Positions 7,979 to 60,342 of a stretch of 64,000 nucleotides of DNA are shown here, in pieces. The stretch's first letter is position 1. Every line of letters begins with the position of its first letter. A model generated the notes under the pieces. It ran no database searches. It had not been told where the DNA came from and saw only the letters and a list, made by a program, of their open reading frames with translations. A program made the position numbers and the translations under genes. The DNA is taken from positions 5,385,200 to 5,449,199 of the forward strand of contig OX639973.1 of NCBI GenBank assembly GCA_951828385.1. Direction: 5' to 3'. This DNA comes from an uncultured Poribacteria bacterium (GTDB lineage: Bacteria; Poribacteria; WGA-4E; WGA-3G).

Positions 7979-8034
7979 AAAAATAGATCTCCTGGTGGTT
8001 ATTGGTTATAAGTGCGCTGCCCTTTAAGTTATAA

Positions 8035-8061
8035 GTTAAGAGTGAAGTGAAACCTCTTAAC
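8035..8061. repeat. dispersed intergenic hairpin repeat, copy 1
   Basis: GTTAAGAG (8035-8042) pairs with CTCTTAAC (8054-8061). The same 27-nt unit with one base change recurs at 11765-11791. Next to it is an 11-bp inverted repeat, CCGAGAACTCG (8074-8084) with CGAGTTCTCGG (8109-8119), in the space after the DUF5069-like gene. It could act as a transcription end but lacks a T-run. Confidence 0.55.
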
Positions 8062-8140
8062 TTACAACCTTGACCGAGAACTCGCGCCTAAGTAAAAGTA
8101 TCTGTAGACGAGTTCTCGGCTAAAACTTATAACGACTCCA

Positions 8141-8386
8141 CTATCCATCCAATTTCTTCATAGCGGCAATCATTTCATCGTCTGAAGGGTTGTCTTTCAC
8201 CATTTCGACAAACGCCTCAGCACTTAACTTATGTTCCTCCAGGAACATTTTGTCCTGCGGTCACGGATAGATATACTCACCGATGATACCTTGTAATTGT
8301 GCGTTGGCTTTATCGCTGATTCTGGCTAACCATGGGATCCCTCCGATAATCATATCCCTATGGCGTGGTTTCCAATCAAGAGCCAT
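8141..8386 (-). CDS. DUF5069-like small selenoprotein candidate (in-frame UGA)
   Basis: 81 aa if the in-frame UGA (8261-8263, codon 42) is read as selenocysteine. The ATG at 8384-8386 has a perfect AGGAGGT 7 nt upstream. Before the UGA the protein reads MALDWKPRHRDMIIGGIPWL...IGEYIYP, after it PQDKMFLEEHKLSAEAF...MKKLDG, ending at TAG. From memory, DUF5069 proteins carry a Cys at this place in a Y-x-C-P-x-D context, so UGA replaces a conserved Cys. A perfect 7-bp hairpin with loop UGGA follows 12 nt after the UGA. Five SelN genes in the same window show the organism probably decodes UGA as Sec. The alternative is a recent nonsense mutation or sequencing error. The biochemical role of DUF5069 is unknown. 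Confidence 0.65.
8231..8248 (-). promoter_or_regulatory. candidate bacterial SECIS hairpin of the DUF5069-like gene
   Basis: Perfect stem ATGTTCC/GGAACAT with tetraloop TGGA. The loop begins 19 nt after the UGA and has G at its second position, both within the published bacterial SECIS consensus (loop 16-37 nt from UGA, a G in the first two loop bases). Confidence 0.6.
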
Positions 8387-8396
8387 CTGTTTCACC

Positions 8397-8557
8397 TCCT
8401 TTAATAGTTGTCAGTTATCGGTTGTCAGTTGTCAGAAGAATAGTTTTCAGTTTTCAGTTGTGTCAGTTACCTTTCACGTTACTGCCACAAGACACCTCTT
8501 AACTGATAACTGAAAGGTTTTTCGCAGAAAAACCGAACTGATAACTGACAACTGATT
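8397..8557. repeat. CAGTTATCAGTT-type low-complexity intergenic repeat
   Basis: Degenerate 7-nt units (CAGTTGT, CAGTTAT, CAGTTTT) run in one orientation (8406-8470) and then inverted (8498-8555), so the segment can fold into a long imperfect hairpin. The same family occurs at 16312-16345, 41980-42245, 45410-45545, 49160-49255 and 54811-54880, always between genes. Confidence 0.6.
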
Positions 8558-16676: not shown

Positions 16677-18197
16677 ATGAAAACACCACTGAACAAAATA
16701 ACACTCAATCTTGACAAGGATGCAGAAATATCCCTTAAAGGGTTCATCGCGCCGATTGAATACACGCAATACAACTTCCACGTAGAGTGGGAGGCATTGG
16801 CACATCTGCAAGCCACCGAACCGGAAAAGCAACATGCGGCATCCGTTTTTCAGGCATTTTTACCATCGGAACCGGTTTCAGTCGGTGAATGTTGGGAGAT
16901 TCAAGAAAGTGTTCTGGAATTACTGAGGCAACTTAATCCGAATCCGAGATTGAATTTGCACATCAATAACGGGGATTCGTATGGAAAGTGGGCATGTCTG
17001 CGTGCTTACAGTAATGAAGTCGCAGACATCATGTTTCGCATCCATGCGGAGTTTGAATTTGCAGATGGTAGGTTCACACCTTCCCAATTTGCTGGTCATC
17101 TCGTTATTGACCGAATCAAAGAAGAAATCACATTTTTTCAGATGCATGTGCCTAAAGGGACGCTGAATTTCGATGTTTATCGGAACACAATCGGATCCGA
17201 TATCGGCTATTGTCCTCAAATGGAACTCTGCACAGGTATACCACCGCATGATGTCGAATTCACCGCATCAATCACACAAGAAGAAGCGGAACACGCACTA
17301 ATATCGTGTTTCTACAAGGTTCAGCACATTAACTGGGTCTCGCTGGAGGCGGCTTTGGAAATGGCACCGGCACAGCAAAAACCGATCCACGCGATCACAT
17401 TAGATGGGCCGCTCTTCGATGAGTCCTGCTGAGCGAGTGGCAAAGGTCTGAGGGCAGGTGTCCTCTCAAGAGACGAGATTATTGAATTCTTGAACGAACA
17501 TTTTATCAACACTTGGATCCCCAATTCTGAATTGGGACGTGTCCGTCGTTTGCGCGAACCCATTGCCAAAAAACGCGAACGCGAAGGCGATCCGTTTGAT
17601 ACAACCCACGCTTTGGCACAAGCCATCATGAGGGGATGGAAGACCGGTTCAAAAAAAGGGTCACCGGTGGATTCCTTCGTTATATCACCCGAATTTGAAC
17701 TGATGGGTAAACAACAGTTTAATGAACTCGCAAGGGATAATATCTCTCCAGCAAAATATTATCACACATTCCTTAGGGAAGCCTTGGATGGGAAACAGCC
17801 CGGATTGGGGAACATTGTTCTTACCCGTGAGCATCCTGCAGAGGAAGTGCTGGACGTTTTTCGGACACCAACGGTCGGTTATTTAGATTACACCGTTGTC
17901 GTGATTGATGTCACATCTTTTGAAAACGGCGGAACACTCACCGTTGATATTAAAATCGGTAGGGAGAGTGGTGACGGTGAGTTTTATCTATTTGACGAGG
18001 CTGGCGAACTTTCCATAAATGAAGAAGAACCGAAAGATGCACTTACTGGGACGTGGGGTGAACCCGGAGATACGCTGCAGATTACACACCGTTTTGACCG
18101 AGGTCAACTTTTTAAGTTAGGTGCTTCAGGATATTGGGACGAAGGGGAAATGTGTACCAACGCATTTCTGGCAAAAATTTCTGTAGAGGAGAATTGA
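16677..18197 (+). CDS. selenoprotein N homolog, copy A (UGA = Sec252)
   Basis: 506 aa reading the UGA at 17430-17432 as selenocysteine; no other stop interrupts the frame. The start ATG has GAGGAT 7 nt upstream. Residues 1-251 match the SelN core: VMFRIHAEFE..-type strand (IMFRIHAEFEFADG), FTPSQFAGHLVID, LNFDV, DIGYCPQMEL, then KPIHAITLDGPLFDESC. Sec follows, then ASGKGLRAGVLSRDEII and FLNEHFINTW, the position of the animal SelN motif SCUGSGR.LR...LLN..F...W. A thioredoxin-like segment and a C-terminal beta-rich domain (VFRTPTVGYLDYTVVVID...NAFLAKISVEE) complete the protein. No signal peptide, so probably cytoplasmic. Here the residue after Sec is Ala. Function inferred only as a thiol/selenol oxidoreductase. 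Confidence 0.9.
17450..17465 (+). promoter_or_regulatory. SECIS hairpin of SelN copy A
   Basis: GAGGGC-AGGT-GTCCTC: six pairs (one G-U), tetraloop AGGU beginning 23 nt after the UGA, G at loop position 2. Meets the bacterial SECIS consensus and keeps the coding frame. Confidence 0.75.
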
Positions 18198-18198
18198 A

Positions 18199-19884
18199 AT
18201 GAAAACATTATCAAACGAAATTACGTTTAATCTTGCCGCGGATGCAGATGTATTGGTCAAAGCTTTTATTGCTCCGATTGAACATACCGTAGGCGGATTT
18301 CATAAGAGATGGGATGCGTTGGCGAATCTACGGGCTGCGGAGCCAGAAAAGCAGTATGCTGCCGCCGTTTTTCACGATTTCCTTCCATCCGAAGCCGTTT
18401 CGGTGGGTGAGTGTTGGGAAATTAAAGAAGCCGGTGTCGAGGAATTGCTGAAACAACTTCATCGCAATCCTTCTCTGGACATGCGTGTGGAGATGTACGG
18501 CTTAGAAGAGTGTAAAGGTCTCCGGGCATGCTTGCGCGCTTACAACGATCAATTGATTCACATCGTTTTTCGCATCCATGCGGAATTTGCTTTAGAGGAC
18601 GGTTGGTTCACACCATCACAGTTCGCTGGACATCTCGTTATGGATCGTGACCAAAAGGCTGTTGTATTCTTTCAGATGTACCTCCCCGCAGGTACACTAA
18701 ACTTTGATGTTCATTGGGAAACGACATTAGAGGGTTGGGACGCTCCGAGATGGATTACAGATTGCGGTTATTGCTCGCAAATGGAGCTCCGTGTCGGTTC
18801 AGATGATGTTCTACAAAGCACCGAATTTACAGAAGCAATCACACAAGAAGAAGCCGAACGTCTTTTAATCCTGCAATTCTACAAATCGCAGCGCATTAAC
18901 TGGGTATCATTAGAGGAAGCGTTGGAAATGGCACCTGCACAACAGAAACCCGTTCATATCATTTCCCTGGATGGTCCACTCGCCGATGAGGCGTGCTGAG
19001 GGAGCGGTAAAAGCCTGAGAGCAGGTGCTCTCTCTCATGACCGAGTCATTAAATTTTTGAACGAAAATTTTATCAACACATGGGTCTCTAATTTTGAATT
19101 AGGCAGGAAGCCGAGTGTGCGAGAATATCTTGCTAAAAGATACGCGCACGAATCTAAATCGTTTGACACTACCCATCCGTTGGCACAAGCAATCAAGAGC
19201 GGTTGGCACGAACGCTCACCTGTGGACTGTTTTGTTATATCGCCTGACTTTGAGTTGAAAGGTAAACTCGCTTTGAATAAATACCTCTTCGGCGGTCACG
19301 GCTTAGATGGCAGCAGAACAGCAGCAGAAAATTACCGGCTCTTTCTGATTGAAGCCTTAGAGGGGAAATATCCGGGATTTAGTACTGATAACGCTTTTGC
19401 TTATCTATTAGGTGAGGAAGAAGATACCCCTGAACAGGAAAGCCCTTTCAAACCTTTCTTAACGGATTTGAACGTTATTCTCAACCCGACGCAGTCCACA
19501 TTGGAAGTTTTGGATATTTTGCGGACCCCTGAAACGGGTTCTCTGGATTCTACTATCGTAACAATTGATGCGACTGCCTTTGAAAAGGGTGGGATACTGA
19601 CGATTGATATACGCCTCGGTAGTGCCAAACTCGCAGGCTCTTTCTATTTATACGATAGCGACACTGAATTTCCGTCGGAACGCGGGCTGCGCTACTATCA
19701 TTCATTTGCCACTGCGACGGATATTCTGTCCGGTGGAACGGCACAAATTACGTATCCTTTCTACCGAGGCCAAGTTTTTAAGCTCGCAATTGTCTCCGCC
19801 GAGCGGGTGGATAACAAAGCATCTGTCAATGCCTTTCAAGCGAGAATTTCTGTAGAGCCAGCAAAAAAGCCTGAATCAATGTAG
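18199..19884 (+). CDS. selenoprotein N homolog, copy B (UGA = Sec267)
   Basis: 561 aa with the UGA at 18997-18999 read as Sec. The ATG lies 1 nt after the copy A stop, with GGAG upstream, so the two genes are co-transcribed. The SelN core is clear: IVFRIHAEFALEDGWFTPSQF, GHLVMD, CGYCSQMELR, then LDGPLADEAC-U-GSGKSLRAGALS and FLNENFINTWV. This copy has Ala instead of Ser before Cys (ACUG). The part after Sec is longer than in A and diverges most, with an acidic insertion (EEEDTPEQES) before the beta-rich C-terminal domain. No signal peptide. Final stop is TAG. Confidence 0.9.
19017..19032 (+). promoter_or_regulatory. SECIS hairpin of SelN copy B
   Basis: GAGAGC-AGGT-GCTCTC: six perfect pairs, the same AGGU loop, 23 nt from the UGA. 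Compared with copy A, pair 4 changes from G-C to A-U and pair 5 from G-U to G-C, keeping the stem: compensatory change. Confidence 0.8.
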
Positions 19885-59370: not shown

Positions 59371-60342
59371 ATGAAGATAAAAAATAGATACAGATTTTTC
59401 TTTCTGACTGTTGGGTTGGTACTGCACTTGCTTGGGTGCGATCCCGAGCGAGGTGGTTTCTTATTACCAGATAACATTTTATCTGAAAACGAGCAGGTTC
59501 CAGCTATGGAAAGCGTCGAGAGCACTAACGCTGAAACCTCCTTTGAACAGAATCTTTCGCCTATTCTGACGGAAAGATGTGCGTATGCGGGTTGCCATGT
59601 TGCTGGCGGACCCAAAAACCTTGATTTCAGCACATATCAAGCTTTTATAAAGGGTGGCGATGAGGGTCCCGTATTTATTCCGGGCAATGCCCAAGGAAGT
59701 GCTATTATTGATGAAATTGTCTCAGGTAGAATGCCCATCGGTGGGCCGCAGCTGACCCATGCCGAAATTCAACGCTTTACTGATTGGATTAACAGCCAAG
59801 AAACAGTCACGGATAAACCCGTTGAAGAATCGCCTGGAACCCAAACTCCGGAATCCACTGACGGTACAGTTTCTTTTGAACAGGACCTGCTACCTATTCT
59901 CACGGCGAGGTGTGCATATAGTGGTTGTCATGATGCTAACGGTCCCGACGACCTCGATTTCAGGACATACCAAACTTTCATAAGAAGCGCAGAGGACGAG
60001 GATGTATTCGTCCCAGGTAATGCCCGAAGCAGCGATATTATTGAAGAAATTGTCTCTGGCAGAATGCCGCCTGACGGTCCTTCGTTGACTGCTGCGCAAA
60101 TTCAACTCTTCAGAGATTGGATTAATCAGCAAGACCCTGCCGATTTTCCTAACCTCCGTTACGATGATGATGATGACGAGGACGACGAGGACGACGACGA
60201 TGATGATGGTGATGATGACCACGACCACGACGACCACGATGACGACGATGATGATGATGAAGATGACGATGATGACGATGACCACGATGATGATGACGAT
60301 GATGACGACGATGATGATGATGACGATGATGATGATGACTAA
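59371..60342 (+). CDS. lipoprotein with two cytochrome-c-like domains and a poly-Asp tail
   Basis: 323 aa. Lipobox LHLLGC, then two similar domains of about 90 aa. Each starts SFEQ.L.PILT.RCAY.GCH and ends VSGRMP..GP.LT.AEIQ or AAQIQ with a WIN motif; this is the Planctomycete-type cytochrome domain. The heme motif is CX4CH (CAYAGCH, CAYSGCH) rather than CXXCH, and RMP supplies a possible Met ligand. The last about 65 residues are almost only Asp with some Glu and His, encoded by GAT/GAC runs (60162-60339). Probably an anchored electron carrier or surface protein; the acidic tail could bind cations. Stop TAA. Confidence 0.82.
   Translation: MKIKNRYRFFFLTVGLVLHLLGCDPERGGFLLPDNILSENEQVPAMESVESTNAETSFEQNLSPILTERCAYAGCHVAGGPKNLDFSTYQAFIKGGDEGPVFIPGNAQGSAIIDEIVSGRMPIGGPQLTHAEIQRFTDWINSQETVTDKPVEESPGTQTPESTDGTVSFEQDLLPILTARCAYSGCHDANGPDDLDFRTYQTFIRSAEDEDVFVPGNARSSDIIEEIVSGRMPPDGPSLTAAQIQLFRDWINQQDPADFPNLRYDDDDDEDDEDDDDDDGDDDHDHDDHDDDDDDDEDDDDDDDHDDDDDDDDDDDDDDDDDD
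60162..60339 (+). repeat. GAY trinucleotide tract encoding poly-Asp
   Basis: About 60 codons of GAT/GAC with occasional GAG/GAA and CAC. Mixed use of both Asp codons indicates selection on the protein rather than fresh slippage. The tract also gives long spurious frames on the other strand. Confidence 0.85.

Follow-up and report, generated by a model that had tools for sequence, protein, structure and literature searches.

A small DUF5069-family gene of Poribacteria with an in-frame UGA and a conserved downstream hairpin: a very probable selenoprotein gene

The Gene and Its Signals

The DNA analysed here (the window, 64,000 nucleotides of contig OX639973.1, assembly GCA_951828385.1, from an uncultured Poribacteria bacterium) carries a small gene of the DUF5069 family whose frame contains a single UGA, very probably read as selenocysteine (Sec). 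The features of the gene, which lies on the minus strand (the initial annotation named no strand), are collected in Table 1. The elements from which that annotation had started, namely a Shine-Dalgarno sequence, an 81-codon frame, a UGA at codon 42 and a 7-bp hairpin whose UGGA loop follows the UGA after 19 nt, are all present. The AGGAGG core of the strong Shine-Dalgarno sequence ends 8 nt 5′ of the ATG, and codon 42 stands in the context YIYP-U-PQDK, with the motif YP-U-PxD.

Table 1. Features of the predicted DUF5069 selenoprotein gene in the window
Feature	Position	Strand	Evidence or comment
DUF5069 gene (predicted selenoprotein)	8141..8386	minus	81 codons + TAG, single in-frame UGA
Shine-Dalgarno AGGAGGTG	8393..8400	minus	sequence; retained in most orthologs
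Start codon ATG	8386-8384	minus	
UGA codon 42, Sec/Cys column	8261..8263	minus	44/44 distinct UGA genes; every other ortholog read has a Cys codon
Predicted bacterial selenocysteine insertion sequence (SECIS) hairpin AUGUUCC-UGGA-GGAACAU	8231..8248	minus	fold and conservation; missing from Cys forms
Hairpin 5′ arm AUGUUCC	8248-8242	minus	
Hairpin loop UGGA	8241-8238	minus	
Hairpin 3′ arm GGAACAU	8237-8231	minus	
Stop codon TAG	8143-8141	minus	

Membership in DUF5069, which had been claimed for the product, was borne out by a Pfam match (PF16798, E = 8e-14) that scored 52.3 bits, above the curated cut-off of 27. The match covers residues 7-78, and thus both sides of the UGA, at profile positions 4-75 of 133. 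A search of the NCBIfam models with the protein gave no match.

UGA and Cysteine Codons in Orthologs

We searched 82 genomes of the same class (Candidatus Poribacteria) and found an ortholog in 77. The frame has exactly one stop, TGA, in 71 of these (72 copies), with no further disabling change, and the fetched orthologs include 44 distinct UGA genes, every one with the TGA at the identical codon. The frames of the other six genomes are free of stops and have TGC or TGT, the codons of cysteine (Cys), at this column. A scan of named genomes gave, among its 80 best loci, 60 with TGA, 18 with TGC and two with TGT; this set overlaps that of the 77 genomes, and a few of its Cys loci are themselves from Poribacteria. 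The UGA-bearing genomes in the scan were metagenome-assembled genomes (MAGs) of Candidatus Poribacteria, and Cys loci beyond Poribacteria came from records of Latescibacterota, Handelsmanbacteria, Chloroflexota, Bacillota/Clostridia and Gemmatimonas (Gemmatimonadota). The scan may have missed UGA forms from other phyla, given that Cys was part of one of its two patterns. The presence of Cys at the column, a test set beforehand, was thus seen in every non-UGA ortholog read, from Poribacteria and other phyla alike, and no residue other than Sec or Cys was seen there in the orthologs read.

A conserved Cys at this place in DUF5069 had been proposed at the outset. It is indeed found in the non-UGA orthologs read and in 3omd, a solved structure of DUF5069 (YNCPLD), but it is not universal in the family. 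A 427-residue protein with three DUF5069 domains, encoded in the same genome (L146:1367-2650), has no Cys and reads GESSGLD, GDDSGQD and AEDSGID in place of CPxD, from which it follows that the thiol or selenol is dispensable in some DUF5069 proteins. For many Poribacteria, longer paralogs (~430 residues) are listed as well.

Among the UGA genes, differences at codon positions 1, 2 and 3 numbered 5415, 2838 and 16569 before the UGA and 5283, 3384 and 14032 after it. There were no frameshifts in the genes read, and a whole codon gained by genome G059 is the sole length change in the aligned region. As judged by these substitutions, both sides of the UGA evolve in the same protein-like way and the downstream half is translated. 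In a tree of 61 proteins, which are too short to resolve it, the Sec forms fall to one side of a branch supported at 76/81; they may have had one origin.

A Conserved Hairpin Downstream of the UGA

Folding of the 56 nt from the UGA gave a structure that includes the AUGUUCC/GGAACAU stem. The z-score of this fold, calculated for the single sequence, is only -1.5, and a comparable stem follows 20 of the 2360 UGA trinucleotides of the window (0.8%). In the lone sequence the hairpin is moderately rare, which is suggestive and no more; it is its conservation that takes it far past chance.

All 44 distinct UGA genes have the same codons 48-51 (TTC CTG GAG GAA), and nowhere else in the gene are successive degenerate codons frozen. 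When 20 distinct UGA sequences were compared, the inner five pairs formed in all of them, and three of the seven stem pairs showed changes on both sides. Compensatory stems are found in G059, the genome with the inserted codon (GUAUUCC-UGGA-GGAAUAC), and in G058 and G061 (AAGUUCC-UGGA-GGAACUU). Pairing, 87.9% in register, fell to 24-66% when the structure was slid along the alignment. Because many sequences lose the outer two pairs, the core of the hairpin is a 5-bp stem; every UGA form read retains a stem of at least 5 bp and the UGGA loop. The stem is not kept in the Cys forms read from Poribacteria and other phyla. We conclude from these comparisons that the hairpin is under selection as RNA.

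The criteria for a bacterial SECIS element are a loop of 3-9 nt, a stem of 4-16 bp, a G in the first two loop positions, a spacing of 16-37 nt and a minimum free energy of -7.5 or lower (PMC13188914). The window hairpin falls within all of these ranges (4-nt loop UGGA, 7 bp, 19 nt and -14.1 kcal/mol for the 56 nt). An Rfam search of the window gave no match.

Selenocysteine Machinery and Other UGA Genes

The genome holds a complete set of Sec genes: selA (603 bits), selB (355 bits), selD (363 bits) and, 39 bases from selB, the tRNA-Sec gene selC (76.4 bits, anticodon tca). selD is itself a selenoprotein gene, with an in-frame UGA in KCAGUASK (L147:301-1344, corresponding to G000:C1:1330100-1331143). 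Most relatives have a selB above the cut-off. Five of the six Cys-form genomes are among them and thus keep Cys despite their ability to make Sec; completeness of G080, the sixth, is only 61%. According to PMC5649159, SelA and SelB are found together in most bins of sponge symbionts.

SelN genes had been reported from the same window, and SelN-like genes with an in-frame UGA were found there, four in number, at positions 17430, 21759, 23794 (+) and 32273 (-). They share the motif SCU[GA][ST]GK..LRA and occur as tandem copies, with a predicted stem-loop 3′ of each UGA; a further gene of similar kind ends in DEAC at 18999. SelN does not appear in the text of the 2026 inventory of prokaryotic selenoproteins (PMC13188914), and the literature searched gave no paper on SelN with Poribacteria.

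Predicted Protein and Gene Neighborhood

A model predicted from 23 orthologs is mostly helical (predicted local distance difference test score, pLDDT, 75). The Sec column directly precedes helix 43-51 of the model, in agreement with 3omd; past 3omd, the fold search returned noise only. The window protein is devoid of cysteine, and the alignment has no second conserved Cys.

In Poribacteria, the gene lies between one for a UPF0182 membrane protein and one for a chorismate mutase/prephenate dehydratase, the latter common to 57 loci, those of Cys-form Poribacteria included. At 12 non-Poribacteria loci (L131, L133, L134, L143 and others), a conserved gene of ~330-400 residues lies ~1 kb upstream of the Cys form. 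Two of its members were scanned and gave no Pfam match; motifs like TDYNPRN...FIEF may recall a phosphotransferase fold, which is an impression only. Short intergenic direct and inverted repeats of the AACTGATAACTGACAACT type flank the DUF5069 gene on both sides (window 8021-8068 and 8406-8556), and an open reading frame at 59371-60342 of the window closes with a long stretch of Asp codons, some His and Glu codons among them.

Interpretation and Alternatives

The gene is very probably that of a small DUF5069-family selenoprotein with Sec at codon 42. Sec decoding at the UGA, argued from the genome comparisons and from the machinery present, is almost certain: the UGA/Cys column, the conserved hairpin and the Sec genes all support what the initial annotation proposed. 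SelB with Sec-tRNA-Sec would bind the hairpin just 3′ of the UGA, Sec would be delivered at codon 42, and the ribosome would continue to the UAG, yielding an 81-residue, mostly helical protein. Against this picture stand the moderate confidence of the structure model and the gene neighbors, UPF0182 and chorismate mutase/prephenate dehydratase, which yield no clear clue to a role.

That the UGA is a disabling mutation, in a pseudogene or through a sequencing error, is suggested by the bare presence of an in-frame stop and by nothing more. The same lone UGA recurs at the same codon in independently assembled genomes of several families, without another stop or a frameshift and with purifying selection on both sides, and this conservation refutes the explanation, to which we assign a negligible probability. 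We consider it just as improbable that UGA is reassigned genome-wide (e.g., to Trp or Gly) or merely leaky. Read-through of this kind would also produce an intact protein; however, the homologous residue is always Cys and never Trp or Gly, the UGA-linked hairpin is retained, and the genome has the full Sec pathway. Moreover, UGA is not reassigned, since the DUF5069 gene itself terminates with UGA in G057, G060 and G073. Marginally less improbable, though still very unlikely, is a true stop, with a 41-residue peptide as product and the downstream part as a separate product or regulatory structure. A hairpin located right after the UGA would fit this, but DUF5069 homology runs unbroken across the codon, the Cys orthologs are single proteins, and the codons after the UGA evolve as protein.

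As to the role of Sec in such a selenoprotein, its place at a helix start and the lack of a resolving Cys suggest chemistry by one selenol and a partner outside the protein. The model sets this single Sec in a Pro-Sec-Pro motif just before the helix N-terminus, a site that would stabilise a selenolate. The reactive residue of DUF5069 is probably this conserved Cys/Sec. It may act through its one selenol in redox chemistry or as a nucleophile, partnered by an external thiol or reductase, a role that we hold to have somewhat less than an even chance. A structural or metal-binding Sec is a weaker candidate. It would accord with the lone Sec and missing resolving Cys, with a helical model matched among solved structures by 3omd only, and with the GESSGLD-type sequence that takes the place of Cys in the paralog; on the other hand, the choice of Sec over Cys usually reflects reactivity, and the helix-start position in the model likewise speaks against it. 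Only tentatively do we suggest that this unlisted family, a small helical fold with a lone Sec and no resolving Cys, might perform selenol chemistry of an undescribed kind in Poribacteria.

Relation to Known Selenoproteins

The 2026 inventory comprises 119 prokaryotic selenoprotein families, those of Haft and Tolstoy 2025 among them, and DUF5069/PF16798 is missing from its full 119-family table (PMC13188914). There was no mention of DUF5069 or PF16798 in the literature searched, which did not include the MAG survey of Deng et al. 2026, and an unpublished or database-only annotation is possible; nor did the literature searched give a paper on selenoproteins of Poribacteria. DUF5069 appears to be a previously unlisted selenoprotein family decoded by the known SelB/SECIS system. 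To the roughly 119 listed families it would add one that lacks the usual UxxC/CxxU redox motif, and it would provide the first functional clue for DUF5069, of which a structure has been solved. Across most of the class of this candidate phylum, gene finders that go by frame only would truncate the gene at 41 codons. The setting is that of sponge-associated Poribacteria. As Sec versions with the hairpin and Cys versions without it both occur naturally, Sec decoding in Poribacteria and the function of the residue can be tested directly.

The DUF5069 gene resembles the SelN-like genes of the window in its in-frame UGA, downstream stem-loop and organism, and differs from them in that they encode an unrelated protein with the SCU[GA][ST]GK motif in tandem copies. 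With the formate dehydrogenase FdhF and other SelB/SECIS selenoproteins it shares a stem-loop immediately after the UGA, a G in the first two loop positions and the full selABCD set; in contrast to them, its hairpin has the loop UGGA and a short stem, with 7 bp in the window and a constant core of 5 bp, and DUF5069 was not listed earlier as a selenoprotein family. The closest counterpart in structure is 3omd from Leptospirillum rubarum, which matches the window protein in sequence (E = 1.3e-16) and the predicted model in fold (Z of 10.2 over 75 residues), the window protein differing in its length of 81 residues and in the predicted Sec that replaces Cys.
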